59,720 nucleotides of DNA, from positions 1 to 59,720 of IMG/VR virus record IMGVR_UViG_3300045996_001340. One strand, given 5' to 3'. Every line of letters begins with the position of its first letter. The first letter of the stretch is position 1. This DNA comes from a virus. Below, in pieces: positions 2,898-57,746 of the stretch. The position numbers and the translations under genes were made by a program. Under the pieces are notes generated by a model. It saw nothing but the letters and a program-made list of their open reading frames with translations, made no database searches and had not been told where the DNA came from.

Positions 2898-3577
2898 TCC
2901 CCGAAATAGAACTCTCGGCAGTACGCCAACAGCACGTCGCTATCTGCGGCCGTGTAGTCGGTCCAAGGTGTGCCCCAGTCCTGTACTTGCAGATACGCGC
3001 GAGTCACTTCACCGTCGTCCAATTCGCCCATGATGCGGACGGCAGGTCCGCCAGTGGACAGCAGGATCTTGAATTCTTCCGCGCCCGATCCGCTCGCATC
3101 GCCAAGCGAGCGCCATCCGTTGCGAACTTCGACGGACAACGGATCTTCCTGGATGCGTTGACGCGCATCGTCTTGTGACTCGCAGTCACCTGCCGCATCG
3201 GTGAGTTCTTTCAATTCCTCGCCGTTCTCTTCGTCCCACTCGGCCAGCGCTTTGCGTGCGTCGTCTAGATCGGTAGCGGAATCGCTAAGCACGACGCAGT
3301 TATCGCGCGCGTCCTGCGCTTCTTTCAATTCACCGGCAAGCGCTTGGCGTTCGTCCTTCAGTTCTTCGAGTCGGTCAAAGTCGCAGTTCAATGCCGCAAC
3401 CATTTCGGCCAGCGCAGCATACGCGCCGCGACCAATCTCCATCAGCGCATCATGCTTGTCCGAGTCGCGCTTCTCGTCGGCTTCGAATTCTTCCAACGCT
3501 TCCGCCGCGGCGATAGATGGCGCCGGCGCGGCTTTGTTGGCGATCTTTCGCAAAGCTTCTTTCAGTACGTAACTCAT
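2894..3577 (-). CDS. Phage protein, 227 aa, coiled coil plus conserved C-terminal domain
   Basis: Residues 20-150 are strongly charged and predict long helices or coiled coil. The C-terminal 80 residues (GAEEFKILLSTGGPAVRIMG to VLLAYCREFYFGE) match a pattern I know from uncharacterised phage proteins, with conserved STGGPAVRI, QDWGTPW and FYFGE. No function is established. The CATAGGAGTTAAGAGCC leader and hairpin at 3621-3649 precede it. Confidence 0.75.
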   Translation of the reverse strand: MSYVLKEALRKIANKAAPAPSIAAAEALEEFEADEKRDSDKHDALMEIGRGAYAALAEMVAALNCDFDRLEELKDERQALAGELKEAQDARDNCVVLSDSATDLDDARKALAEWDEENGEELKELTDAAGDCESQDDARQRIQEDPLSVEVRNGWRSLGDASGSGAEEFKILLSTGGPAVRIMGELDDGEVTRAYLQVQDWGTPWTDYTAADSDVLLAYCREFYFGE

Positions 3578-3658: not shown

Positions 3659-3946
3659 TCAATCGGCGTTGTCGGGGTACTCCGAGCGTGCGTCCGGTCC
3701 TGCGTTTTGACCGGTATACGTCGCGCCGCGATTCTCAGACCATCGAAAAATGATCGTCGACCCGTCGTAGTACGTGCCGACAAGCTTTGTGCACCGGCCT
3801 GCATCGTTGCGCTTCATTTCGCGCACCCGGCAAGGGCCGAAGATGTAGCGCGTTCCGTCGCGACGCACGGCATAGCCTCCGGCCAATGTCACAGCAACAA
3901 AGTCGCCGGACGTGAGATTCGTTGCAATTTCAACTGCGGTTTGCAT
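3659..3946 (-). CDS. Hypothetical protein, 95 aa
   Basis: Starts MQTAVEIATNLTSGDFVAVT. The central part (GGYAVRRDGTRYIFGPCRVREM) suggests a small beta-rich domain. No motif is recognised. The neighbours are other small early genes, with no overlap at the 5' end (4 bp gap). Confidence 0.6.
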   Translation of the reverse strand: MQTAVEIATNLTSGDFVAVTLAGGYAVRRDGTRYIFGPCRVREMKRNDAGRCTKLVGTYYDGSTIIFRWSENRGATYTGQNAGPDARSEYPDNAD

Positions 3947-6339: not shown

Positions 6340-6546
6340 ATGAAGACTCCACCTCGCCCTGATAAGCCGCTTGTCCCTCCTGTGGCCAAGCCGAAGACCT
6401 ACCGGATCATCAAGTCGTTCAGCTTGCTGTGGTTCACCGAGAACGTGAACGACGCCCTCGCCCCCGGCACGCAGCTCGTTGGCGGCCCGTTCATCGTGAT
6501 GACCGGCAACCTGCAGCTCGAATACTGTCAAGCCGTGCTCGAGTGA
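6340..6546 (+). CDS. DUF1737-like small protein, 68 aa
   Basis: Starts MKTPPRPDKPLVPPVAKPKT. After a proline-rich leader the rest fits the DUF1737 pattern: a YRIIKSFSLLWFTENVNDAL segment, then GTQLVGGPFIV and a terminal EYCQAVLE (usually YAQALV). DUF1737 proteins are small, of unknown function, and common in phages. ATG 6340 was chosen over the upstream GTG 6283 because the intervening codons are made of the regulatory box. It is the first gene of the rightward arm; no clear Shine-Dalgarno sequence is seen. Confidence 0.6.
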   Translation: MKTPPRPDKPLVPPVAKPKTYRIIKSFSLLWFTENVNDALAPGTQLVGGPFIVMTGNLQLEYCQAVLE

Positions 6547-6692
6547 AGAGGCGAAGGAAGCAGCCGGCGCCGCCGGCAACACGTGACGTGCGCCGATTGA
6601 AGTTGCCCGTGCGCTGTCCGTACGACTTGCCGATGTTCTCGATCGGCGTCGGCTGCTTCCGTGCGCCAAGAATGCGAGGAGCGAGCGAATGA
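6543..6692 (+). CDS. Small basic protein, 49 aa
   Basis: GTG 6543 overlaps the stop of the preceding gene (GTGA). Starts MKRRRKQPAPPATRDVRRLK, very basic at the N-terminus, then a short hydrophobic and cysteine-containing part (LPVRCPYDLPMFSIGVGCF). Function unknown. Support comes from tight coupling on both sides. Confidence 0.45.
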   Translation: MKRRRKQPAPPATRDVRRLKLPVRCPYDLPMFSIGVGCFRAPRMRGASE

Positions 6693-6796
6693 TCTCGAAG
6701 GTCAAGTTCCGCTGGAGCTACACGTACAGCAAGTGGCTGCTGAATCCGTTGAATCAGTGGCTCGTCAACCCGCATCTGCCGCAGGTGGCGTGGTGA
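6689..6796 (+). CDS. Tiny protein, 35 aa
   Basis: ATG 6689 in an ATGA overlap with the preceding gene; starts MISKVKFRWSYTYSKWLLNP. Rich in tryptophan and aromatic residues, possibly membrane-peripheral. No family. It ends 29 bp before the rightward promoter. Confidence 0.4.
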   Translation: MISKVKFRWSYTYSKWLLNPLNQWLVNPHLPQVAW

Positions 6797-6825
6797 ACTC
6801 TCGGCGGCACGCATTCTCGCCGAGC

Positions 6826-6854
6826 TTGACTTAGTTCCGTAGTTCCGGGATAAT
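6826..6854 (+). promoter_or_regulatory. Strong rightward promoter with tandem boxes in the spacer
   Basis: TTGACT (6826-6831), exactly 17 nt, then GATAAT (6849-6854), close to the sigma70 consensus. The whole spacer is TAGTTCCGTAGTTCCGG, two head-to-tail boxes, identical over 17 bp to 1741-1757. A regulator bound here would block or reshape RNA polymerase binding. Downstream lie the hairpin and tRNA block and then the terminase and virion genes, so this is the likely late or RNA-block promoter. Confidence 0.75.
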
Positions 6855-6894
6855 GTCTTTGCTGATACTCCCACCTGAGCTCCGGCACCGCGTC

Positions 6895-6954
6895 GGATAT
6901 CCCCACCAGTCCCCCGCCAGCGCATTTCGGAATTGGGCGGTCTTGGACTGATCC
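6895..6954 (+). ncRNA. Structured leader RNA element
   Basis: Nested complementary blocks in order: ggat (6895-6898) with atcc (6951-6954), agtcc (6908-6912) with ggact (6945-6949), ccgcc (6914-6918) with ggcgg (6936-6940). Together they make one multi-segment stem with internal loops. A small gcgg/ccgc hairpin follows at 6958-6970. It lies between the promoter and the long hairpin in a stretch without genes. Function unknown. Confidence 0.4.
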
Positions 6955-6977
6955 GGCGCGGTTTTGCCGCTCAGGGC

Positions 6978-7059
6978 GTTTATCGAGAGGCATCGGTTAC
7001 GGCCCTAGCGATCCCTGTACAGAGATTGCGAAGGACGTGGCTGGTGCCTCATGATAAAC
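6978..7059 (+). ncRNA. 82-nt full-length hairpin RNA candidate
   Basis: Base 6978+i faces base 7059-i for 40 positions without a single bulge: 29 Watson-Crick pairs, 6 G-T pairs and 5 mismatches, leaving a tiny central loop around the palindrome ctgtacag. The outer seven pairs (gtttatc/gataaac) are perfect. G-T outnumbers A-C (6 to 2) when read on the plus strand, which favours selection as plus-strand RNA. It begins about 120 nt after the promoter and ends 2 nt before tRNA-Tyr. Possible roles are an RNase III processing site for the tRNA block, a regulatory RNA, or a packaging site upstream of terminase. No known family recognised. Confidence 0.6.
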
Positions 7060-7061
7060 GT

Positions 7062-7145
7062 GTAACGGTTGGTACATTGGAAGGTCCCGGCGGTTGTAAC
7101 CCGCCCGCTTCGGCCTTGGCGGTTCGACTCCGTCCCGTTTCACCA
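7062..7145 (+). tRNA. tRNA-Tyr (GTA), class II with long variable arm
   Basis: Acceptor gtaacgg/ccgtttc (one T-T mismatch), anticodon stem ggcgg/ccgcc with loop ttgtaac giving anticodon GTA. A 12-nt variable region contains a ttcg-capped mini-stem. The T arm is ggcgg-ttcgact-ccgtc, and the 3' end is ACCA, so CCA is encoded. The D stem is weak (two good pairs), so the score in a tRNA finder may be modest. The long variable arm fits bacterial tRNA-Tyr. Confidence 0.75.
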
Positions 7146-7157
7146 CAAGTAGCGGCC

Positions 7158-7193
7158 CTTCCCCGAGGCGAGCGCCAATAAATTTCGGGGGAG
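7158..7193 (+). ncRNA. Inter-tRNA hairpin
   Basis: cttccccgag (7158-7167) pairs over ten positions with ttcgggggag (7184-7193; two G-T pairs), enclosing an AT-rich loop and a short gc/gc stem. It lies between the two tRNA genes and may guide their processing. Confidence 0.4.
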
Positions 7194-7202
7194 CGATTCT
7201 GC

Positions 7203-7279
7203 GCACGAGTGGTCCAGCGGCCACGATGCTGAGCTCCAAACTCATGAGACGGGGGTTCGAGTCCCTCCTCGTTGCGCCA
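7203..7279 (+). tRNA. tRNA-Trp (CCA)
   Basis: The anticodon loop ctccaaa on a four- to five-pair stem gives anticodon CCA. The T arm is ggggg-ttcgagt-ccctc. The acceptor gcacgag pairs with ctcgt-tgc around one bulged T. The D arm has three pairs (gtc/gat) and the usual GG in its loop. The 3' CCA is encoded at 7277-7279. Overall length is 77 nt. The acceptor irregularity is unusual and could mean partial decay. Confidence 0.65.
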
Positions 7280-7410
7280 AACGAAAATGCGGACACAAGA
7301 GCGACAGCAAGTCGCCACCCGCATAGCCGGCCCGGTTAGGGCCACACCACTTCCGGTCTTTACCGGGCCGCGCCGTACCCCGGCGCGATTTACACCCCCA
7401 GGAATCCTAC
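7280..7410 (+). promoter_or_regulatory. Leader of the virion operon with two hairpins
   Basis: Between tRNA-Trp and the first structural gene, ccggt-cttt-accgg (7353-7366) and cgcgccg/cggcgcg (7369-7387, 5-nt loop) form adjacent stems. They are followed by an AGGA ribosome site before GTG 7411. No T-run is seen, so processing or attenuation is more likely than full termination. Confidence 0.4.
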
Positions 7411-8019
7411 GTGTCCGAAGACCTTTCGTGGTTGGACATCGAGCCCGCGGCTGCACCGCGCGTCGAGTCTGCCAACAAGCTGACGAACGAGCGCAAGCGC
7501 GCGAAGTCGATGCACAAGGGCGTGCTGAAGAAAGGGCAGACGTGGGGATCAGACGGCGAGTTCGTCTACTTCCGCAGGAAGCAGGCGAACCCCGCCACGC
7601 TCGAGCGCCACAACCGCTTCATGGCGAATGGCGACTACAAGCACATCGACACGCAAGACGACGTCGAGATTTACAAGCTACAGGAATCCAGCCCCTTCAA
7701 ACGGGACCAGGCCGACCTGAGTTCGCTACCGCTCAACGTGGTACGTCGCACAGCGATTCTAGCGGCCTGCGCGCGCGACTGGGTTCTGTTCACCGATGCG
7801 CTCGAAGACTTGGCCTTCAAGATCAAGAACGCGCGCTACACCGACGGCCAGACCGCTGACGCGAATTTCGCGAAGCAGCTCTGGCAACAGCAGCTCGACT
7901 ACGTCTTTCGACTCATCGAGCTGCGTCGCGGCCCCGGTCAGTTCGACATCGATCGCGGCATGCAAGAGGTCCGCGCGCGTCGCGGGCACAACAGCCGGAC
8001 GCTGTACCTGCCGCAATGA
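7411..8019 (+). CDS. Hypothetical protein preceding terminase, 202 aa
   Basis: Starts MSEDLSWLDIEPAAAPRVES. The N-terminus is charged and basic, and the C-terminal 100 residues are helical (NVVRRTAILAACARDWVLFT and on). An opening acidic SWLD motif is shared with the next protein (DTSWLDD), which may mean both contact the same partner. The GTG start has AGGA upstream, and the stop overlaps the next start (ATGA). No family recognised; its position suggests a packaging or DNA-binding role. Confidence 0.6.
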   Translation: MSEDLSWLDIEPAAAPRVESANKLTNERKRAKSMHKGVLKKGQTWGSDGEFVYFRRKQANPATLERHNRFMANGDYKHIDTQDDVEIYKLQESSPFKRDQADLSSLPLNVVRRTAILAACARDWVLFTDALEDLAFKIKNARYTDGQTADANFAKQLWQQQLDYVFRLIELRRGPGQFDIDRGMQEVRARRGHNSRTLYLPQ

Positions 8020-8741
8020 TCGAGCGCGAGGACGACGAAGACACCTCGTGGCTCGATGACGTCGACGAGGACGTAGAGGAGTGGCTGCGCGATCAGCCGC
8101 CGGCAGAGGGCGACCCCTTGTCGCCGAATGGTCCGGTGAAGCTCGAGCCCGTTGCAGGGCCGACGCCCGGCGAGAACGCATTCCTCGATCTGCTGCAGGA
8201 CGACACGACCCCGAGTACGCGGTACCCGACCGTGCCGATGGACGTCGAGACGAAGTACGTCCAGGCGGTCCGTCAGCTGCAGATGATCCGCCCGAGCCAG
8301 CGCACGTTCATTCGCGCGCTCGTGCAAGAGGCGGGCGATGTGCCTTCCGCGCTGCGCGTCTACAACGCTCGCTTCTCGAAGAAGCTGAGCTACAACCAGG
8401 TCCAGCGCTGGAACCACAACGAGAACTATCGCGGCGCGCTGCAGACCGCACTGAACTACTACCTCGACCTGCACGGCATCAACCCGACGAACGTCCTGTT
8501 GAAGTCGCAACGAGTGTATAGCGCGGCGATGGAGCCGGCGCCGATCCTGCACAAGGGTCGCGCGACGGGTCACTTTGAGCGGCAGCTCGGCGTCGCGGCC
8601 CGCATGGTCGAGACGCAGGGCAAATGGGTTGGGCTCGAGAAGCCCGAGAACAATGGCGGACGCGCTCGCGTACGCATCATCCGCCTGAGCTCGCGAGGGC
8701 AGGGCGACGAAGCGATCGACGTCGAGGTTGGCGGTGGCTGA
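8016..8741 (+). CDS. Putative terminase small subunit, 241 aa
   Basis: After an acidic first 75 residues, a helical block (RTFIRALVQEAGDVPSALRV then KKLSYNQVQRWNHNENYR) has the helix-turn-helix look of small terminases, which select viral DNA for packaging. A following helical part (ALNYYLDLHGINPTNVLLKS) would fit oligomerisation. It lies immediately before the large terminase and overlaps its start. The family call rests on pattern and position rather than one diagnostic motif. Confidence 0.65.
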   Translation: MIEREDDEDTSWLDDVDEDVEEWLRDQPPAEGDPLSPNGPVKLEPVAGPTPGENAFLDLLQDDTTPSTRYPTVPMDVETKYVQAVRQLQMIRPSQRTFIRALVQEAGDVPSALRVYNARFSKKLSYNQVQRWNHNENYRGALQTALNYYLDLHGINPTNVLLKSQRVYSAAMEPAPILHKGRATGHFERQLGVAARMVETQGKWVGLEKPENNGGRARVRIIRLSSRGQGDEAIDVEVGGG

Positions 8742-10209
8742 CACTTTCAATTTCGAGTACGAGTCGCAGGGCGAGGTGTTGGAGGCGTGGGGCTTGTCCC
8801 GCGCGCCGGTGCACCTGATCCGCGGCCCGATCGGCTCCGGTAAGACCTGGCGCGCGATCTTCAAGATGATCGAGCTGTGTTGCGACCAACGTCCGAACCA
8901 GGACGGCGTGCGCAAGACGATGGCCGCGGTGGTTCGCAAGACCTACCCGGAAATCAAGAGCTCGATCCTGAAGGACGTGCAGCAGCTGATCCCGCCGGAG
9001 CTCGGCAAGCTCACGCTCGGCCACCCGCCGCAGCTCGAGCTCGACTTCGATCTCGACGACGGCACGCGCGTTCAGGCGACGATTCAGTTCCTCGCGCTCG
9101 ATGTGCCGGCGGATGCGAACAAAGTCCGCGGCATGAACATCTCGTGGGCGTGGATCAACGAAGCGAACCTGCTCTCGCGCGATGTCTTCGACATGGTCGC
9201 GGCCCGCACGGGACGCTATAAGCCCGGCACGAATACATGGGCGGGCGTCTTCGCCGACTGCAACCCCTGGAACCAGGATCACTGGATGCAGGAGGTCGTC
9301 GAAGACAAGAAGAAAAACCCGCAAAAGTGGGAAGGTTGGGAGGTGTTCGTACAGCCCCCGGCCGTCATTCGAACCGAGACCGGTTGGCGAGTCAACGAGG
9401 CGGCCGAGAACCAGGCGCTGCTCAAGACTGGCTACATCGAACGCATCCTCACGGGTAAGCGCGAGGACTGGATCCGGGTCAACCTCGGTAACGAGATCGG
9501 ATTCAGCTTCGACGGCAAACCTGTGCATCCGGACTATTCGGACGCATACCACGTCGCGAAGGAGCCGCTTATCCCCAGCGCCGGTGTCTGTTACATCGGT
9601 CTGGACTTCGGGCTCACGCCCGCCGCCGTTTTCTGGCAACGCCAGGGCAGCGGCTGCTGGTGGGGGTTCGACGAGCTGGTCGAGATGGACATGCACAACG
9701 AGGCGTTCGCGCGGCTGCTGAAGGCGCGCATCGCCGACTGGCGCACGCGCGTCCCGGGCTTGATGTTCAAGCTCGTGGGCGACCCGAGCGGCGACAATCG
9801 CTCGATGACCGATGGACGCACGACGCTGCAGATGTATCGGCTGCACGGACTGAACGTGCTGCCGGCTTCGTCGAACGACCCGCAGGTCCGGCGCGATGCG
9901 CTGATCCGCCCGCTGACGCGCAGCGTCGGGCAGGGCAAACCCGGACTGCTGTTGTCGCCGCACATGACGCACCTGCGCAAATCTCTGGCTGGCGCATGGA
10001 GCTACAAGAAAGTCGAAACTACCGGGCCTGAACGATTCAAGGACGAGCCCGATAAGTCGCAGCACTCGCACGTCGGCGAAGCCGCTGAGTACGGACTCAT
10101 GGACGCCGGCGAGCATGCGATCCGCAACGCCGATGCCTTGAAGCAGCAGCAAGTCGCAGGACCTGTCATGCCGCAGAAACCGATGGCTTGGGATCCCTTT
10201 AGGTGCTGA
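8728..10209 (+). CDS. terL: Terminase large subunit, 493 aa
   Basis: The ATP-driven packaging motor and nuclease. The Walker A site is GPIGSGKT at residues 33-40. A hydrophobic strand ending in WINEAN matches Walker B with the catalytic acid. FADCNP is the coupling motif. The C-terminal nuclease starts at YIGLDFGLTPAAVFW (first catalytic Asp) and continues with LVGDPSGD. The size is normal. The start is TTG 8728, or GTG 8734; both overlap the upstream stop. The gene lies between the small terminase and the early head genes. Confidence 0.93.
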   Translation: MAVADTFNFEYESQGEVLEAWGLSRAPVHLIRGPIGSGKTWRAIFKMIELCCDQRPNQDGVRKTMAAVVRKTYPEIKSSILKDVQQLIPPELGKLTLGHPPQLELDFDLDDGTRVQATIQFLALDVPADANKVRGMNISWAWINEANLLSRDVFDMVAARTGRYKPGTNTWAGVFADCNPWNQDHWMQEVVEDKKKNPQKWEGWEVFVQPPAVIRTETGWRVNEAAENQALLKTGYIERILTGKREDWIRVNLGNEIGFSFDGKPVHPDYSDAYHVAKEPLIPSAGVCYIGLDFGLTPAAVFWQRQGSGCWWGFDELVEMDMHNEAFARLLKARIADWRTRVPGLMFKLVGDPSGDNRSMTDGRTTLQMYRLHGLNVLPASSNDPQVRRDALIRPLTRSVGQGKPGLLLSPHMTHLRKSLAGAWSYKKVETTGPERFKDEPDKSQHSHVGEAAEYGLMDAGEHAIRNADALKQQQVAGPVMPQKPMAWDPFRC

Positions 10210-40377: not shown

Positions 40378-40491
40378 TCACGACAGCAGGCCGATGATCG
40401 CGGCGAGCATCTCGCGCATCGACCAAGCGACGACGCCGACGAGGAGCCAGGACAAGAAGAGGAGGGAGAGGAGCAGGCGGAACCAGTTCAT
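40378..40491 (-). CDS. Membrane peptide, 37 aa
   Basis: ATG 40491 to TGA 40378. MNWFRLLLSLLFLSWLLVGV, then VAWSMREMLAAIIGLLS: one strong transmembrane segment and an amphipathic tail. It overlaps the sigma factor gene by 4 bp. Role unknown. Confidence 0.5.
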   Translation of the reverse strand: MNWFRLLLSLLFLSWLLVGVVAWSMREMLAAIIGLLS

Positions 40492-40967
40492 GCTGCAACC
40501 CTCTCGTTGAGGGCGGCGCGGATGCGCGCGGTGCGGGTGCGGATTGTGACGTGCGACACACCGGTCGCTGCGTGGATCTCGTCACCGGAGTCGCCAAGGA
40601 CCGTCGAGGTGAAGATCTGGCGGTGCAGCGGGTCCTTAAGCATCCGGTCCAGTCTTGCCAAAACTTGTATAGCGTCGACTTGCAATTCGACGTTTGATGC
40701 GGCAATCTGATCCGGCATTTCATCCGGGGCGACATAATCAGTCATCAGGTTGCAGTGCTTCTGCTTCTGCTTGAAACAGAGCGAGCGCATGATGTGCTGG
40801 AGCCACGTGGGCAGGGAACATTCACCGCGGAACTTGCATTTGAAGCGAGCCGCGGTCACGAACGTGTCTTGCAGAAGGTCTTGTGTAGCGTCTTCGTCGC
40901 GGGTGAGACGCTTGGCGCTCGCGCGCAGGTTGGGCAGGGCGTCCGCGATCATCTGATCGGTCAGCAT
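40488..40967 (-). CDS. ECF-type RNA polymerase sigma factor, 159 aa
   Basis: Residues 20-70 fit sigma region 2 (DEDATQDLLQDTFVTAARF, then ECSLPTWLQHIMRSLCFKQK), the core-binding and -10 recognition domain. Residues 105-155 fit region 4 (LHRQIFTSTVLGDSGDEIHA, then GVSHVTIRTRTARIRAALNE), the -35-binding HTH. Region 3 is absent, as in ECF sigmas. It would redirect host RNA polymerase to phage promoters. Its own upstream gap carries two CCGGAAC boxes and a strong hairpin. Confidence 0.8.
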   Translation of the reverse strand: MLTDQMIADALPNLRASAKRLTRDEDATQDLLQDTFVTAARFKCKFRGECSLPTWLQHIMRSLCFKQKQKHCNLMTDYVAPDEMPDQIAASNVELQVDAIQVLARLDRMLKDPLHRQIFTSTVLGDSGDEIHAATGVSHVTIRTRTARIRAALNERVAA

Positions 40968-41190
40968 AAGGGCTCCGAGCGTTCCTGCTGACTGCCTGGT
41001 AAGTTGGCAGCAGGGACACCAGTTGGTTTAACGACTCTCTGGCTCTTCAGACCGCCCCGGTGAGTGTCAGCTCACCGGGGCGCTCTCTTTTCACTTCTTC
41101 ATGTCTGCTTCGATCCTGTGACCGGAACTAATGTTCCGTTGAAGTGCACTCTACGTTAGTTCCGGAAAATATTACAACTCGGGGAAAACC
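40968..41190 (-). promoter_or_regulatory. Control region upstream of the sigma factor gene
   Basis: This gap holds gaccggaacta (41120-41130) and, inverted, ttagttccgga (41157-41167), separated by an extra half box (gttccg, 41133). Downstream in the minus direction is a perfect 12-bp stem hairpin (41053-41082). Autoregulation of the sigma gene through the boxes is plausible. No clear sigma70 hexamer pair is seen next to them and no gene is seen in the gap. Confidence 0.55.
41053..41082. terminator. Strong hairpin between DNA polymerase and sigma genes
   Basis: cgccccggtgag (41053-41064) pairs perfectly with ctcaccggggcg (41071-41082) around tgtcag. A T-rich tract (ctctcttttc) follows on the plus strand only. 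On the minus strand, the direction of the genes, no U-run follows, so there it may act as an attenuator or processing site. As a plus-strand terminator it would stop antisense transcripts. Confidence 0.55.
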
Positions 41191-43341
41191 TTATTTGCGA
41201 TACCGCTTTGCCCTGTGCCCTTCGACCGCAACCGGCAAACCGCGAGCCCACCCAGGAATGTCGCACATGATCTGCGCCGCTTCTTCGAGCGAGCCGAAGC
41301 CCTCGGCCGGCTCTAAGATCGGCTCGTCGTGGGCGCTGCCGATCGGCGGGTAGCCCCTTCGCTCAAACTTGTGCTTCGCATATACCAGCAGGTCCCTGCT
41401 GATTGCCTGCACAGCGTTCTCATCCAATTTGCCGCCGTAAGTACTCGTCTTCATGTAGCGGCGACTGTACGTATCGACGCCCCAGTAACGAACAACATAA
41501 TTCACAGTCTCCAGGTCCTCATTGACCTCCTGATCGAGACTGGGACGGAAGTACCACAACCGTCTTCCAGAAGGCAGACGCATGCACAGCCATTCGTTGG
41601 CCTTGTACCTCACGACCCGAAACATTATTTTTCCGCCTGCGCACTGGTACACATCGCCGCTGTGACGCACTGCCATTACGGCGGCCTCACGTAGGTCTTT
41701 CCACCCCTGCACGATGCGGGGGTGCTGCTCGCGCCACAGCTGCTTCAGGCCGTCGCAAGCGAGGTAGATGTGCTGCGGGAGTTTGGAGCGCGAGCCGAAG
41801 TTGCTCCACATCCAGGCTGACTTCTCGCAGACCCAATCCGGGAACGTGCCGTCGACCTGCTTCGCGAGGTCTTCGAGGTTGATGCCGTAGTTCGGCACCA
41901 TCGTTGCGAACGCGGAAGCGCCGCCCTCGTAGCCGAGCGCGAGCTCCATGACCTTGCCGATCTGGCGCTGCGACTTGATGACGTCTTCGATCGGGATACC
42001 GAACGCACGGGCGTAGGCGATCTTGTAGTTGTCCGGGCCGGTGCCGGCGTCCTGCTTGCGGAACCCTTCGAGCTTCCACTCTTCATCCCACAGCCACGCG
42101 TTGACGCGCGACTCGATGCCGGCGAAGTCGGGGAAGAGCAGGTCGCGTCCAGGCGAGGCGATCAGCATGCCGCGCAGGCAGCTGGCGAATACCTTCATCG
42201 GGTCGACGTCGTAGAGCGTGCGGATGAAGCTGAGCGACTTGAGCTTCATCGCCTCGATCGCCGCGTTCGCGTCGTCGATCACCGGGCGGAAGAGGTTCTG
42301 CAGTTGCACGCCGAGCGACGACCACCGGCCCGTTGCGGCGCCGTGGTACATGAACATGCCGCGCAGCTTCCCGTCGGCGCACGCCATGTCCTGGAGCGTC
42401 TCGAGCTTCGCGACTGCTTTCATCCCGTACGTGCTGTAGATGCGCAGCACGACCTTGCAGTTGTCCGGGCAACTGTCTGCCGCGACGATCTGCTTGACCG
42501 TCTCGGCCTGCATGTCGGTGAGCTGCGGGTAGCCGTTCGCGCGAACCCAGTCGGCGACCTTCGCGCGCTGCGTCGGCTCAAGGCCGTCCGTCAGGATGCG
42601 GAAGCGCTCAGCGAGCTCGCTCTTGTACTCGTCGACCAGCGCTCGCGCGATGGCGACCATCTCAAGGTCGACCTGCCAGCCGCGGTCATTCATCCGCTGG
42701 TCGAGCTCGTAGACGAGCTGCTCGGACGGCTTGAGGTCCGGCACGGCGTCGTCCACTTCGCGCTCTGCCTCGACGTCATCGACGTTGTAGCAGAGCATGT
42801 TCTCCCAGCGCTCAGGCGCATTCTCCGGCGTCCAGCGCTTCTCTTTGCCAGTGCGTGGCTTGGACAGGGCGAGCATATCCATGCGCCCAGCTTCGTCCTT
42901 AGCGTGCGTGCCGAGGGCTTTGGCCGAGTCGCCGAGGGCGCGCGGCAAGCCGTGCACCGCCATCTTCGCGGCGGTGCAGACCATCTGCCCGATCTTGGGG
43001 CGAGGGAAGTTGAGCTTCCGCCCTGCAGTCCCGTTGAGGACGACGCGCTCGAACTGGGCGTGGTGCGCCCGGAACTCGCCACCAGACTCGATATGAGCCC
43101 GCAGGTCGTCCGGCACTTCCAGACCGACAACAATGCGAACGCCCGGCTTGCGCAGCCGTACGGCCTCCAGAATCGGCTCAGGGAACGATTCGAAGGGAAG
43201 CCACAAAGTCACCGGGCCGTGGTCGAAAGCGTAGCCCAGGACGTTCAGCTCGGTGGTGGGGTGCTCGGCGTACTTGAACGCGCCTGCCGTTTTGAGGTCG
43301 CACTCGCTGTACGTTTCCAAATCTCCATGCATGCGCGTCAT
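41191..43341 (-). CDS. DNA polymerase, family A, with 3'-5' exonuclease domain, 716 aa
   Basis: Start ATG 43341 chosen for its ATGA overlap with the HNH stop. Exonuclease: MHGDLETYSE (D7, E9) and YNVDDVEAE. Polymerase: YHGAATGRWSSLGVQLQN, motif A DFAGIESRVNAWL (near residue 420), motif B RQIGKVMELALGYEGG, and motif C SAHDEPI. No 5'-3' nuclease domain is present, as usual for phage replicative enzymes. Together with the DUF2815 and DUF2800 genes upstream it forms a common phage replication cassette. Confidence 0.93.
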   Translation of the reverse strand: MTRMHGDLETYSECDLKTAGAFKYAEHPTTELNVLGYAFDHGPVTLWLPFESFPEPILEAVRLRKPGVRIVVGLEVPDDLRAHIESGGEFRAHHAQFERVVLNGTAGRKLNFPRPKIGQMVCTAAKMAVHGLPRALGDSAKALGTHAKDEAGRMDMLALSKPRTGKEKRWTPENAPERWENMLCYNVDDVEAEREVDDAVPDLKPSEQLVYELDQRMNDRGWQVDLEMVAIARALVDEYKSELAERFRILTDGLEPTQRAKVADWVRANGYPQLTDMQAETVKQIVAADSCPDNCKVVLRIYSTYGMKAVAKLETLQDMACADGKLRGMFMYHGAATGRWSSLGVQLQNLFRPVIDDANAAIEAMKLKSLSFIRTLYDVDPMKVFASCLRGMLIASPGRDLLFPDFAGIESRVNAWLWDEEWKLEGFRKQDAGTGPDNYKIAYARAFGIPIEDVIKSQRQIGKVMELALGYEGGASAFATMVPNYGINLEDLAKQVDGTFPDWVCEKSAWMWSNFGSRSKLPQHIYLACDGLKQLWREQHPRIVQGWKDLREAAVMAVRHSGDVYQCAGGKIMFRVVRYKANEWLCMRLPSGRRLWYFRPSLDQEVNEDLETVNYVVRYWGVDTYSRRYMKTSTYGGKLDENAVQAISRDLLVYAKHKFERRGYPPIGSAHDEPILEPAEGFGSLEEAAQIMCDIPGWARGLPVAVEGHRAKRYRK

Positions 43342-43904
43342 GCATGGCTCCAGCAAGAGTGGTTGCAAAGTACCCGACTTACGTACTTCCAGGAGATATC
43401 GAAGTACGAAGCTATCTCTTTCAGCTTCACGCCGGCAGCCCGCAGATCGAACATTCTCTCGACTGTTCCTTCAGTCAGCTTCGAATGAGGATTGGCTTCG
43501 CGGCGCAGGCGAAGCTCAGGTCGGCGCCGCAGGTAGTGCTTGTCGCCCGAAATGTCCGTTCCGTGCAGGTAACGGTCGTTTAGGTTGTCTGACTGAGTCG
43601 TCCATCTCAGATTGACGGCCCTGTTGTCGGCGTGCACGCCGTTCCCGTGCGCCGCCACCAGCCCTGGAGGTCTCGGACCCGTGAACGCGGTGAGCACAAG
43701 GTCGTGGACAGAGACATCCTTGCGGATGCTGTCCCGGAATAGGGCTACGATGCGGTAACCTTTTGGGGTGGTGCCGCCTCGAAGAATTTTTCCTTTACGT
43801 CGGTATCCAGAGGCATCGATCCGATCAACGCCGCGCACTCGGCCGAGATCGCTGACCTCGTACAAGCCTTCATACCCGACGATCGGCTTCCACGTTTCGC
43901 TCAA
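43338..43904 (-). CDS. NUMOD4/HNH homing endonuclease, 188 aa
   Basis: WKPIVGYEGLYEVSDLGRVR is the NUMOD4 start. LVLTAFTGPRPPGLVAAHGN, then NRAVNLRWTTQSDNLNDR is the HNH_3 core (H, N, N). A C-terminal HTH-like part (KLTEGTVERMFDLRAAGVKL) gives DNA specificity. TTG 43904 with AGAGAGG upstream is my preferred start, since family similarity begins there. A freestanding mobile endonuclease placed between replication genes without disrupting them. Confidence 0.8.
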   Translation of the reverse strand: MSETWKPIVGYEGLYEVSDLGRVRGVDRIDASGYRRKGKILRGGTTPKGYRIVALFRDSIRKDVSVHDLVLTAFTGPRPPGLVAAHGNGVHADNRAVNLRWTTQSDNLNDRYLHGTDISGDKHYLRRRPELRLRREANPHSKLTEGTVERMFDLRAAGVKLKEIASYFDISWKYVSRVLCNHSCWSHA

Positions 43905-44055
43905 TTCGGTATACCTCTCTGACTGCCACGATCCATGTGCACGCCGGCGAGTGTCCGTTCTCGCCGAGAGCGAGCCTCGGCCCCAGATCGCACTGACAAG
44001 CAGGGCCATCTGGGGCGCGAAGCAGGGTCCGCAGATGTGCGGACTCAGCCGTCAC
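43870..44055 (-). CDS. Hypothetical protein, 61 aa, Cys-rich
   Basis: GTG 44055 in GTGA overlap with the next gene upstream. Starts MTAESAHLRTLLRAPDGPAC. CQCDLGP, then SPACTW gives three cysteines that might bind metal. The 3' end overlaps the start of the HNH gene by 35 bp, as expected if the HNH gene invaded here. Confidence 0.5.
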   Translation of the reverse strand: MTAESAHLRTLLRAPDGPACQCDLGPRLALGENGHSPACTWIVAVREVYRIERNVEADRRV

Positions 44056-45190: not shown

Positions 45191-46426
45191 TCAGTCGGCA
45201 TCGGCTTGCGGGCCGAGATCTTCGAACTCCTGAAGTGCGTCGACGGTGAGGGCGGGCCGTTTGTCATCGTGGGTAGCGATGGTTGGACGGCCCGGTGTTT
45301 TGGAAACGAGGTGGGCGAGGGCGCCTGCCGGCTTCTTCTCGGTCGCCGCGCGAAAGTGCTTCGCGCCGACGAGCTCCTCGACCTTCGCGACCGACTTGAG
45401 CTCGGGCTCGGTCAGCAGGTCTTTCTCTTCGATATCGAGATCGACGTCCTTCACGGCCTCGATCACGGCCGCCGCGGGCTTGGTGAAGCTGCGACTGCTC
45501 TTGCCGCCGACAAGCTTCAGACCGCCAACCGGCCTGCCGTGTTGGAGCTCGGCGTAGATGTGCGACTTGATCTCGCCCATCCATTTCGTCAGCTCGCTGA
45601 ACCGCAGATAGATCTTCTCGATCGTCGAGTTGTCGAGCGTCGGCAGCGCCTTCATCGGCGCGTTGAGGTTCTCGAAGTCGCCGATCGCCTGCTCCATCAA
45701 GTCCTTCGCGCGGTGCTTACACGTCTTGCGGATGCGGCAGAAGTTCTGCGAGCACCACGGCCCGGCTTTGAACGGCGCGTCCTCTGCTTCCGTCGCTAGA
45801 GCTGCCGGCGCCAAGACCTCGTCTGCCCACTTGAGCAGGTCGGCGAGTGAGATGCTCCACTTGTCGAAGTGGCCGATACGCGGCTGCACGATATGGAGCA
45901 CGAAGTCGGTGATGTCCGGATAGAGCCACCCGTAGTCGTGCCACCAGCCGAGCCCGTAGAGCATCAACTGTTCGCAATTCTCCGCGAACACTTGCACACC
46001 TTCGCCTAGCTTTAGGTCGATGATGTGCGCCACCGTCTTGTCGATGTTGACGCGGTCAGACGTGCCGAAGCCGTTCTTCACCCACCGGGTGTAGCGGACT
46101 CGCAGCTCGGAGTGCGACTCGCCCGGAATGTCGGCGCAGTAGTCGAGGAATTGGTTTACGCCATCGACCATCGCGCGGTCGACTGTGACGTCCGCTGCAC
46201 CTTTGACGTGGATAACCGTATCGAGAAAGGACTCTGCGCGCACACCGCGGTCGTGGCACCACTCCGCAACGGTGTGCCCCGCAGTCCCGTACAGCGCGTA
46301 GCTGCTCTGCTCGTCGGGTACGCCTTTGGATGCGCGCACACTTCCCGCGCAGTGCATCCACCTTTTCGCGCCGGACGGGCCGAGATCGGAGTGCGGGTTG
46401 TCGACAATCTCTACAGGTGCGCCCAT
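45191..46426 (-). CDS. DUF2800 family PD-(D/E)xK nuclease, 411 aa
   Basis: SGAKRWMHCAGSVRASKGVP, then GTAGHTVAEWCHD at the N-terminus and TSDRVNIDKTVAHIIDLKLG (D and DxK catalytic pattern) mark DUF2800. CSQNFCRIRKTCKHRAK, near residue 235, provides cysteines resembling the cluster of Cas4/RecB-like nucleases. Always seen beside DUF2815 and family A polymerase in phage replication cassettes. Probably a 5'-3' or 3'-5' exonuclease in recombination. Confidence 0.88.
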   Translation of the reverse strand: MGAPVEIVDNPHSDLGPSGAKRWMHCAGSVRASKGVPDEQSSYALYGTAGHTVAEWCHDRGVRAESFLDTVIHVKGAADVTVDRAMVDGVNQFLDYCADIPGESHSELRVRYTRWVKNGFGTSDRVNIDKTVAHIIDLKLGEGVQVFAENCEQLMLYGLGWWHDYGWLYPDITDFVLHIVQPRIGHFDKWSISLADLLKWADEVLAPAALATEAEDAPFKAGPWCSQNFCRIRKTCKHRAKDLMEQAIGDFENLNAPMKALPTLDNSTIEKIYLRFSELTKWMGEIKSHIYAELQHGRPVGGLKLVGGKSSRSFTKPAAAVIEAVKDVDLDIEEKDLLTEPELKSVAKVEELVGAKHFRAATEKKPAGALAHLVSKTPGRPTIATHDDKRPALTVDALQEFEDLGPQADAD

Positions 46427-46923
46427 CGAACCCCTCGAATAACTCGACTAACCTGCGTTTGAGAAACACCAAATGCCGCAGCGAGCTCGCGCTGCGGGCG
46501 CTTCGAAGCCCTGATGGCCTTCACATCGCTCTCGGTAAGCTTTGCCAGGGTGTGCGCCTCGCCGCGCAGCACTTGACCGTGGAGGTCTTTGTCCGCGGTG
46601 TTTTCTTCGACTGTGCCCCAAGCTAGGTTTGAGGACCTGTTGTCGAAACGGACGCCGTTGAGGTGCCTCGCTTCATGTTCGGGAGAAGGACGTTCACCTT
46701 GAAAGGCGGTAAGAACAAGAACGTGAACATCCCTGCACTTCTGCACGTTGGCGTTCGACAGCATCACTTGCAGATATCGAACCTTGTAGCTTAGGAAACG
46801 CAGTAGCTTTCCCTTGCGGCGGTGTCCGGAACTGATGATGCGGTCGAGCGATCGAACACGGCCGAGGTCACTGACCTCGTACACGCCCTCGTACCCAACA
46901 ACTGCAGCCCACATCTCGCGCAT
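46411..46923 (-). CDS. NUMOD4/HNH homing endonuclease, second copy, 170 aa
   Basis: Start ATG 46923 (MREMWAAVVGYEGVYEVSDL). NUMOD4, then HNH core (LVLTAFQGERPSPEHEARHL, then NGVRFDNRSSNLAWGTVEEN), then a C-terminal HTH (KAIRASKRPQRELAAAFGVS). It shares layout and many residues with the 43338-43904 gene, so the two are related but diverged. Its ATG touches the upstream stop by one base and its stop overlaps the DUF2800 start by 16 bp. Confidence 0.85.
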   Translation of the reverse strand: MREMWAAVVGYEGVYEVSDLGRVRSLDRIISSGHRRKGKLLRFLSYKVRYLQVMLSNANVQKCRDVHVLVLTAFQGERPSPEHEARHLNGVRFDNRSSNLAWGTVEENTADKDLHGQVLRGEAHTLAKLTESDVKAIRASKRPQRELAAAFGVSQTQVSRVIRGVRWAHL

Positions 46924-47192
46924 CAAGCGACTCGTTTGGCGTACTTGTTGCGCTCGATGAGGCGCATCCGCTGGCCGTGCACCGGCGGCGTGCAACCCGT
47001 CTCCGCCTTCGCGATAAACGGGTAGTTGTGGTTCTTGCCGCGGCCCTTGTACGGTTTGATGCGCGAGAGGATCAGCTCACGTTCACCGGCCGGACGCGAC
47101 TCTGCGAACGCGAGCTCGCGGAACTTCATGATGGCGCGGCGGAACGGCGTGCCGGCCTTCACGTTGAGATCGGGACCTTGGACGTTGTTCAT
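46923..47192 (-). CDS. Hypothetical basic protein, 89 aa
   Basis: Starts MNNVQGPDLNVKAGTPFRRA. Basic, with IKPYKGRGKNHNYPFIAKAE. Overlaps the membrane protein gene upstream by 4 bp. Possible nucleic-acid binder; no family recognised. Confidence 0.6.
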   Translation of the reverse strand: MNNVQGPDLNVKAGTPFRRAIMKFRELAFAESRPAGERELILSRIKPYKGRGKNHNYPFIAKAETGCTPPVHGQRMRLIERNKYAKRVA

Positions 47193-53598: not shown

Positions 53599-53628
53599 GC
53601 AAGCTCTGAGCCTGCAAGATCAGGTCAT

Positions 53629-53642
53629 GTTCCGGTCGGAAC
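53629..53642. promoter_or_regulatory. GTTCCGGTCGGAAC box before the replication operon
   Basis: The exact reverse complement of the 14-bp box at 6295-6308. It lies immediately after a strong minus-strand terminator and 31 bp before the first gene of the replication arm, mirroring the 31-bp distance at 6295. No good sigma70 hexamer pair is visible around it. Confidence 0.6.
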
Positions 53643-53680
53643 TAAAAGAAAAAGGCCGCGATCTCTCGATCAGCGGCCTT
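53643..53680 (-). terminator. Rho-independent terminator (minus strand)
   Basis: On the minus strand aaggccgc pairs with gcggcctt (53673-53680 and 53652-53659) around a 13-nt loop, followed by TTTTTCTTTTA (plus strand a-run 53643-53653). This is the clearest intrinsic terminator in the window, closing the 55820-53703 early transcript. A further box (CCGGAACTA) lies upstream at 53693-53701. Confidence 0.85.
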
Positions 53681-53702
53681 GTATTCTATCACACGTCCGG
53701 AA

Positions 53703-53864
53703 CTATCCGGTCTTAACGCACGAATACTCGATTCGTCTCCTGGTCTGCTTGACGGTGTCTTTGCCAGCCTGCTCGCACAGCTCCTGCGTGGCGAACCCCG
53801 GCACGGAGGTGACGGCGACGACGCTTGCGTCCATCGTCAACACCACCAGGATCAGCGTGAACAT
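53703..53864 (-). CDS. Small exported-looking protein, 53 aa, two cysteines
   Basis: ATG 53864 shares one base with the upstream stop. Hydrophobic leader MFTLILVVLTMDASVVAVTS, then GFATQELCEQAGKD and RIEYSCVKTG. The order GFA-Q-CE-A then Y-x-C-V matches the gene at 13692-13868, so the two are probably distant homologues. Confidence 0.6.
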   Translation of the reverse strand: MFTLILVVLTMDASVVAVTSVPGFATQELCEQAGKDTVKQTRRRIEYSCVKTG

Positions 53865-56199: not shown

Positions 56200-56407
56200 G
56201 GGCGGTTAGCTCAGCGGTAGAGCACGTCGTTGACATCGACGGGGTCACAGGTTCAATCCCTGTACCGCCCACCATTCCGAGTGCTTGCTTCGCGGTCAGG
56301 GACAGATCATCGTGGTACTTGCCTTGCGCATCCCAGCCGTACGCTTGGACGCCTGCGTAGAACTGCAACGCTCGTTTGAGTGCGATGATCTTGCCGTGCT
56401 TCGTCAT
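56066..56407 (-). CDS. Hypothetical ORF whose C-terminus reads antisense through tRNA-Val
   Basis: The first 45 codons (MTKHGKIIALKRALQFYAGV, then AYGWDAQGKYHDDLSLTAKQ) look like a real small protein, with a 4-bp overlap to the upstream gene. The rest, starting GGTGIEPVTPSMSTTCSTAE, is the well-known artefact made by translating a tRNA gene antisense. The frame probably continues only because the tRNA lies here, so the true 3' end was replaced or is shorter. Confidence 0.4.
   Translation of the reverse strand: MTKHGKIIALKRALQFYAGVQAYGWDAQGKYHDDLSLTAKQALGMVGGTGIEPVTPSMSTTCSTAELTAPVQKEITWITRAQVLPTGHCPHGVDWIDLYSGHRACRAGCSVEL
56200..56274 (+). tRNA. tRNA-Val (GAC), complete, with CCA
   Basis: Acceptor gggcggt/accgccc is perfect. 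D arm gctc-agcggta-gagc, anticodon stem cgtcg/cgacg with loop ttgacat giving GAC, T arm acagg-ttcaatc-cctgt, then discriminator A and CCA. It looks like a healthy bacterial tRNA. It lies 372 bp from the integrase gene, so it may be a copy of the integration target or part of attP rather than a phage translation aid. Confidence 0.95.
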
Positions 56408-56646
56408 ACGACCAAGTCCTCGTCCGAAGCAAACGCATGCTCCAAGCCGAACCGTTCGTAGAGCTCGCCGCCGTTGTAAGAGGCGATGCGCAGCAGGTTC
56501 ACTGCGATCTTCTCGAGCTGTTCAACGGTCAGGTCGTCAGCCGCGAGAGTATTGAAAGAGCCGTCGACTGCAACCGAGATGTCGAACTTGCTGCTGTGCT
56601 CGTCCACGTACATAAAATCGCGGATGATCGGGTACTCGGTGCTCAT
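56404..56646 (-). CDS. Hypothetical acidic protein, 80 aa
   Basis: ATG 56646 (or GTG 56649). Starts MSTEYPIIRDFMYVDEHSSK. Acidic with helix DLTVEQLEKIAVNLLRIASY. It overlaps the integrase stop. No family. Confidence 0.55.
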   Translation of the reverse strand: MSTEYPIIRDFMYVDEHSSKFDISVAVDGSFNTLAADDLTVEQLEKIAVNLLRIASYNGGELYERFGLEHAFASDEDLVV

Positions 56647-57746
56647 CACATGCTCCCGTCGTTCGCCGCCGCGCCGAAGAAAATGTTCGCGTTAGCGGAC
56701 ATCGGTGCGTTGTTCGCCAAAAGGTACTTCGCCATCCAGCTCGGGTTCACGGCGCGCAGCAGGCGCTCTGCTGAGTCAGCGGCGGCGCGCATGTAGTCGG
56801 GGCGGTAGTGCGCGTAGCGCTCCGTCTCGCCGCCCACAGCGTGGCCCAGCGCACCCTTGACGTCCCACTCCGGCACGTTCTCCTTGCGCATCCAGATCGC
56901 GACTGCCTTGCGGATGCCGTAGGCCGTGCCGTTGACGGCCGCGCGCTTGGCGAGGCGTCGGAACGTCATCTTGAACCCCTTCAAAGGGCGGCCGTTCCAC
57001 TGCACGATCGGGCCGAGCGATCGACGCTCGTTCAGGTACGCAAGCGCGGGCGCGCAGACAGGCGCCTTGGCGCGTCGCTTCTTCGTGAGTCGTCGCCCCG
57101 GCACCACATAGTCGGCAACGCCGGTCTGCGCGTTGAGCCGATCCCAGGTCAAGTCCAGTGTGGCACCGGGGCGCGGTGCGGTTGCAAGACAGAGGAGGAA
57201 GAAGAGGCGCTCGTGCTCCGACTGACATGCTTCGGCCAGGCGCTGGAGTTCGGGCAGTTCGAACGGGCGCACGCCATCGCCATCAGTCGCGTTGATCTTG
57301 AGGACCGTCGGCATCGTGGGCAGGTCGCCGTTGTCGACGCACCACTGGATCGCGGCGCGGATGATGCCCATGTTGCGGCGCTGTGTGCCGGCGCTCGGGC
57401 CGAGGAGCTTCGCGAACTGCTTCTGTCGGCCGATCGGCCAGTCGTAGACTCGAGTGTTCGGCTCGTGCTCGACGACGCGCTTCATCGTCGTGCGGATCGA
57501 GTCGGTCTGGAACAGGTGCTGGCCGTGATGCTCCCAGTACAGCAGCATCGCGCCGACCAATGTCATCTGGTCGTTCTGTTCTCGGTTCGGCTTCTTGAGG
57601 ATGAACTGCGCGAGCTTCTGATCGGCGAGCTTGCGATCTGTTGTGCGAGTGCTAGTTCGCTGCCACTGTCCGGTCTTTGGGTCGTAGTCGTGGTAGATGT
57701 ACCAGTTCGGCGAACCGTGACGCTTGTCGATGTAGCTGCGGGACAT
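56646..57746 (-). CDS. int: Tyrosine recombinase (integrase), 366 aa
   Basis: Catalytic pattern: R192 in LATAPRPGATLDLTW, K in the beta-hairpin region (RRLTKKRRAK), the second R279 in AYGIRKAVAIW (the usual H-x-x-R is changed to Y-x-x-R), H302 in GALGHAVGG, and the nucleophile tyrosine in ERYAHYRPDY. An N-terminal arm-binding part and a SAM-like core-binding domain precede it. It would integrate the phage at attB; the tRNA-Val nearby marks the likely site type. Confidence 0.9.
   Translation of the reverse strand: MSRSYIDKRHGSPNWYIYHDYDPKTGQWQRTSTRTTDRKLADQKLAQFILKKPNREQNDQMTLVGAMLLYWEHHGQHLFQTDSIRTTMKRVVEHEPNTRVYDWPIGRQKQFAKLLGPSAGTQRRNMGIIRAAIQWCVDNGDLPTMPTVLKINATDGDGVRPFELPELQRLAEACQSEHERLFFLLCLATAPRPGATLDLTWDRLNAQTGVADYVVPGRRLTKKRRAKAPVCAPALAYLNERRSLGPIVQWNGRPLKGFKMTFRRLAKRAAVNGTAYGIRKAVAIWMRKENVPEWDVKGALGHAVGGETERYAHYRPDYMRAAADSAERLLRAVNPSWMAKYLLANNAPMSANANIFFGAAANDGSM

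Follow-up and report, generated by a model that had tools for sequence, protein, structure and literature searches.

The DNA analysed is an IMG/VR virus record of 59,720 nt (hereafter the window), a phage contig from a metagenome collection that encodes an integrase. Between a sigma70-like promoter and the first gene of a packaging/structural operon lie, all on the plus strand, two leader hairpins (H1 and H2), two tRNA genes and a further structured stretch (Table 1), and the position of the gene for the large terminase subunit (TerL) puts this leader just upstream of the packaging genes. H1 sits between the promoter and H2, the distance from promoter to H2 is 122 nt, and the predicted transcription start lies at about 6861. 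A terminator scan predicted no terminator-like site between the promoter and the tRNA other than one overlapping the promoter itself. The tRNA-Tyr is poor as judged by ARAGORN, having an acceptor-stem mismatch and a weak D arm; it has no Rfam tRNA match at the gathering score, and its best Rfam match is to tRNA-Sec (23.7 bits, below the gathering score of 47). Upstream of the promoter there is also a 17-nt inverted repeat (94%) with arms at 6556-6572 and 6644-6660, 71 nt apart.

Table 1. Features of the leader and the genes that follow it.
Feature	Coordinates	Strand	Basis and remarks
Sigma70-like promoter, TTGACT-17-GATAAT	6826..6854	+	Consensus scan, 10/12 matches, spacer 17; activity predicted
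Two tandem TAGTTCCG copies in promoter spacer	6832..6847	+	Phage-specific repeated motif, likely operator
First leader hairpin, H1	6874..6975	+	102 nt; MFE -53.2, z -4.3; C-rich 5'-side internal loop
Second leader hairpin, H2	6976..7061	+	Fold energy, palindrome scan, facing-base counts
tRNA-Tyr (GTA), CCA encoded, divergent	7062..7145	+	ARAGORN
tRNA-Trp (CCA)	7203..7275	+	ARAGORN; Rfam tRNA 39.3 bits over 7203-7276
Structured stretch from the tRNAs to the first late gene	7276..7410	+	MFE -52.3, z -4.0
First packaging/structural operon gene, 202 aa, no assigned function	7411..8019	+	Homologues in 15 viral loci; synteny anchor
Terminase large subunit	8728..10209	+	PHROG 2, E 2.6e-28; tblastn to BcepC6B TerL 43%

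The motif repeated in the promoter spacer, TAGTTCCG, occurs 14 times in the window against 0.69 copies expected (1741-1779, 4408, 5130, 5456, 6330, 6832-6847, 41123-41164, 53637-53705 and 59545). Part of the copies form the palindrome GTTCCGACCGGAAC, and some lie close to promoter-like sequences. The motif has the appearance of a phage operator, or of a promoter element for the phage's own regulator; since the record encodes both an integrase-domain protein and a sigma70 region 2 protein, an operator for lysogeny or for a phage regulator is likely. The 17-nt operator pair has no match in viral contigs. The gene for the sigma70 region 2 protein (40488-40967, minus strand; Pfam PF04542, E 5e-7) adjoins TAGTTCCG sites, and its product may be a phage sigma factor. 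In a coarse fold scan of the window, one of the two top-ranking local structures (53621-53710) lies between two TAGTTCCG copies, upstream of a helicase/primase gene.

H2 is a bulge-free hairpin of 86 nt whose 3' end (7061) abuts the first base of the tRNA-Tyr at 7062, as placed by ARAGORN. An earlier note on this DNA had delimited it as 6978-7059, with 29 Watson-Crick pairs, six G-T pairs and five mismatches among 40 facing positions and no bulge. Our recount agrees, giving 30 Watson-Crick pairs, six G-T pairs, five mismatches and 0 bulges over 41 facing positions once the central T-A is included, and two outer pairs (6977 C-7060 G and 6976 G-7061 T) widen the hairpin at its ends. Over the 43 facing positions of the widened form there are 31 Watson-Crick, seven G-T, two A-C and three other combinations. 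The basal helix consists of 10 pairs, an A-A mismatch and 15 pairs, while the apical part is looser.

The predicted fold is far more stable than that of shuffled sequence. The minimum free energy of the 82-nt form is -46.4 kcal/mol (z -8.7, equalled by 0 of 200 shuffles) and that of the 86-nt form -50.8 kcal/mol (z -8.7, and -9.7 on a re-run). An ungapped imperfect-palindrome scan of all 59.7 kb returns H2 as the top plus-strand match with a score of 29.5, compared with 18.5 for the next, and in 40 dinucleotide-shuffled windows the best score averages 18.4 and reaches at most 23.5. The coarse fold scan likewise has H2 in its top two, though off register. Because the palindrome score exceeds the shuffle maximum and z stands at -8.7, H2 is a real structure, beyond chance. 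It is also better formed on the plus strand than on the minus strand, which in the 82-nt form reaches -32.7 compared with -46.4.

An excess of G-T over A-C pairs had been taken in the earlier note as a sign of selection on a plus-strand RNA; A-C pairs are also present in the hairpin. With seven G-T against two A-C pairs overall (one-sided p=0.09) the excess is not significant for the whole hairpin, and the argument is therefore weak as stated; it is significant only in the basal 26 facing positions, where the non-Watson-Crick positions are six G-T, no A-C and one other, compared with one G-T, two A-C and two other in the apical 17, a division made after looking at the data. The basal pattern is as expected if the basal helix is maintained as plus-strand RNA, post hoc as the split is.

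No homologue of H2 was found in viral contigs, phages, plasmids, Rfam or the whole records of relatives, and a covariance model of H2 run against 28 sources and 13 whole records or genomes matched only the window itself. Named phages gave no DNA match for 6400-8400; when the hairpin-tRNA region was searched against them the tRNA part alone matched, weakly (E 0.02), and the plasmid DNA search gave no convincing match. The 95 stretches of viral contigs that match a 14-mer of the 5' arm are all chance, with 0 extending into the hairpin. Neither H1 nor H2 matches an Rfam family at the gathering score, and the earlier statement that the hairpin belongs to no named family holds within Rfam 15, the RNA family database searched. 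Its likening to a microRNA-type precursor proved a visual analogy only (MIR839 scores 19.6 bits, E 0.48, where the gathering score is 200). Nor is H2 an intrinsic terminator, as its stem is followed by GTAACGG and not by a U run and it is absent from the terminator-scan list. Bacterial Y RNA of the YrlA type has a long stem beside a tRNA-like module, as H2 stands beside a tRNA, but H2 does not enclose the tRNA and the record has no TROVE-domain (Ro60/Rsr) gene.

Relatives were sought via TerL, portal and the gene at 7411, the last of which anchored 15 loci; it also did so in two others, and one of these, L239, includes the leader. Named phages are remote relatives (best TerL identity 43%, BcepC6B), and the nearest viral contig (L007, 69% in TerL) has neither tRNAs nor H2. 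Among cellular genomes four TerL relatives were found in genome contigs, the useful one being L201 from a GTDB bin, and the 7411 gene was absent from 768 further genomes in a search run without a positive control. The order of hairpin(s), tRNA and 7411-gene homologue recurs in two divergent relatives: L185, with tRNA-Met, tRNA-Gly and a third tRNA (3870-3941) at the same place, and L201, with tRNA-Thr there. Both have hairpins ahead of their first tRNA, the last of these ending 6 to 8 nt before it; the hairpin sequences of the window, L185 and L201 are unrelated to one another. A simple promoter scan found no consensus promoter in the leader of L185 and none well placed in that of L201.

In each of the three family members examined that carry tRNAs, a hairpin lies no more than 10 nt from the first tRNA. 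The best local z within that distance is -10.8 in the window, -5.4 in L201 and -3.5 in L185, whereas later tRNAs tested in those loci give -1.5 and -0.3, a separate tRNA-Val gives -0.9 and the median over all 16 tRNAs of the fetched loci is -2.0. These values favour a link between hairpin and first tRNA, three cases being few. The pattern could also be a coincidence in hairpin-rich leaders, because the hairpins of the three phages have no common sequence, the tRNA-adjacent hairpin of L201 is terminator-like (12 pairs, then TTTT), and the relatives' leaders as a group are only slightly, and not clearly, more structured than control segments. L201 also carries, just before its 7411-gene homologue (about 3376-3427), a perfect 20-bp hairpin (TATCCGTAATACCGATATCT and its complement) followed by TTTTCCCCC, a candidate for a strong terminator-like attenuator. 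The related leaders L184 (678-744) and L187 (3847-3912) have a strong hairpin in common, in whose apical helix one pair differs in a compensatory way (G-C to A-T).

An identical 14-nt sequence, CCACCCCTCCTGCC, is found in L201 (about 2976-2989) and L239 (about 310-323), two divergent phages, and in each occupies the 5' internal loop of a large leader hairpin of 84-94 nt. It resembles an anti-Shine-Dalgarno sequence, and H1 has its C-rich loop at the same place. A joint model of the two (R2) finds its best match in the window leader at H1, a weak and non-significant one (E 0.08 in 621 nt), and across the leaders it found no further member with confidence. With R2 weak and the leaders barely above controls in structure, we make no claim of a common hairpin family. 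A wider proposal is that the phage family has undescribed, fast-evolving late-leader RNAs, built of a promoter, one or two long hairpins (with the CCACCCCTCCTGCC loop in L201 and L239), optional tRNAs and the packaging operon, and that the leader described here gained H2, fused to a tRNA, as a near-perfect double-stranded RNA serving as a decoy or in processing; we consider this quite unlikely.

The reading we prefer, at a probability of roughly 0.4, is that H2 forms the tRNA-proximal part of a structured 5' leader, on a phage transcript that carries tRNAs, and serves there as a double-stranded element in cis, either for processing (as an entry site for host RNase III) or for protection of the 5' end. 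The strong plus-strand fold, the contact with the tRNA, the promoter with its tandem motifs and the order shared with relatives count in its support, as do the presence of a hairpin at the first but not at the later tRNAs tested and the basal pattern of G-T pairs. Largely the same evidence (the phage motifs at the promoter, the fold statistics and the order in two relatives) bears out the earlier proposal of a structured plus-strand RNA running from the 6826 promoter toward the tRNAs, its transcription being predicted, and in this part the earlier interpretation survives, while its packaging role and its microRNA likeness do not.

Under the preferred reading the transcript would begin near 6861 at the phage-regulated sigma70 promoter and run through H1, H2, tRNA-Tyr and tRNA-Trp, possibly continuing into the packaging/structural genes. 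H2 would act in cis on the processing of this RNA, its long basal helix providing an entry for host RNase III or a clamp against 5' decay, so that the untranslated leader would be split from the tRNA precursor at H2 and RNase P could then make the exact 5' end at 7062. The host enzyme would be required because a search of the phage record for an RNase III gene found none. A helix running right up to the RNase P cleavage site provides no unpaired leader and should impede RNase P if H2 is not cut beforehand. The predicted 10 pairs, A-A mismatch and 15 pairs reach the helix length of an RNase III site (about two turns or more) and, given the predicted transcription, are compatible with RNase III entry at H2; we infer transcription, RNase III processing and a benefit to the tRNAs. 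The known RNase III site R1.1 of phage T7 lies in an imperfect stem and is like H2 in being a long imperfect stem of a phage polycistronic transcript (PMC8708148), but it is located in T7 early mRNA and not beside tRNAs, and cleavage of H2 is predicted only.

Several other accounts have to be set against a processing or protection element. The bulge-free form of H2 is what a recent inverted duplication leaves behind, and a functionless relic of such a short duplication in neutral decay would agree with the lack of an H2 homologue in any relative or collection searched and with an overall G-T to A-C ratio that is not significant. The departures in the basal helix nevertheless preserve RNA pairing (six G-T, 0 A-C), and H2 stands exactly against the tRNA at a position where relatives too have hairpins, which makes a relic rather unlikely. 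It is likewise unlikely that a stable phage small RNA, made of H2 by itself or together with H1, is released to work in trans (as a decoy or by antisense regulation) and has the tRNAs as mere neighbours. H2 is very stable, but it offers hardly any unpaired sequence for binding a target, lacks its own terminator and, by covariance model and DNA searches, shows no sequence conservation in related phages. Small RNAs from phage tRNA regions are on record. In T4, the band C and band D RNAs come from the same region as the tRNAs of that phage. Cited among phage small RNAs of unknown function are these T4 bands, and PAK_P3 has sRNA2, a late RNA of about 100 nt between two phage tRNAs (PMC4933390). 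Those are observed transcripts, whereas H2, situated 5' of the first tRNA, is predicted from sequence, and nothing in the phage collection matches H2 in sequence save its tRNA.

The placing of two adjacent stem-loops right after a phage promoter and ahead of structured stretches recalls the put RNAs of phage HK022, two stem-loops downstream of PL and PR (PMC9378689), and the pair H1 and H2 might act in cis as a leader that alters RNA polymerase, by antitermination or anti-pausing, and lets it read through the tRNAs and the hairpins beyond them into the packaging operon. Neither the size nor the promoter class agrees, however: H1 and H2 span 188 nt against about 70 nt for put in all, and put works at early promoters. 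The HK022 sites moreover have a common sequence, whereas H1 and H2 fit no Rfam family at the gathering score, and a put-like leader is in our view distinctly improbable. Least credible, with only a very small chance of being right, is a DNA element, that is a packaging start, cruciform or recombination site. H2 does share its strand with the large terminase gene, which lies 1.7 kb further downstream, but the plus strand folds much better than the minus, relatives have no such palindrome at the same place, and the integrase with its neighbouring tRNA-Val lies elsewhere (56200-57746). The packaging signal suggested in the earlier note finds no support, given this 1.7-kb distance and the absence of the hairpin sequence from relatives.

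No function has yet been assigned to the small RNAs of phage tRNA regions (T4 bands C and D, PAK_P3 sRNA2), and a phage whose tRNA has a very strong hairpin fused to its 5' end would make it simple to test whether hairpins of this sort serve in tRNA maturation, in transcript stability or in regulation. Should H2 be no more than a relic or a hairpin for processing, it is ordinary; it could be assigned to none of the families tested, is apparently unshared, and has an ordinary role as its most likely one.

Elsewhere in the window, the integrase-domain protein (56646-57746) is encoded beside the tRNA-Val, a good match at 67.7 bits, and 56200-57746 is the probable attachment region of a temperate phage. 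Two NUMOD4/HNH homing-endonuclease-like genes (43338-44009 and 46411-46995, minus strand) lie among the replication genes.
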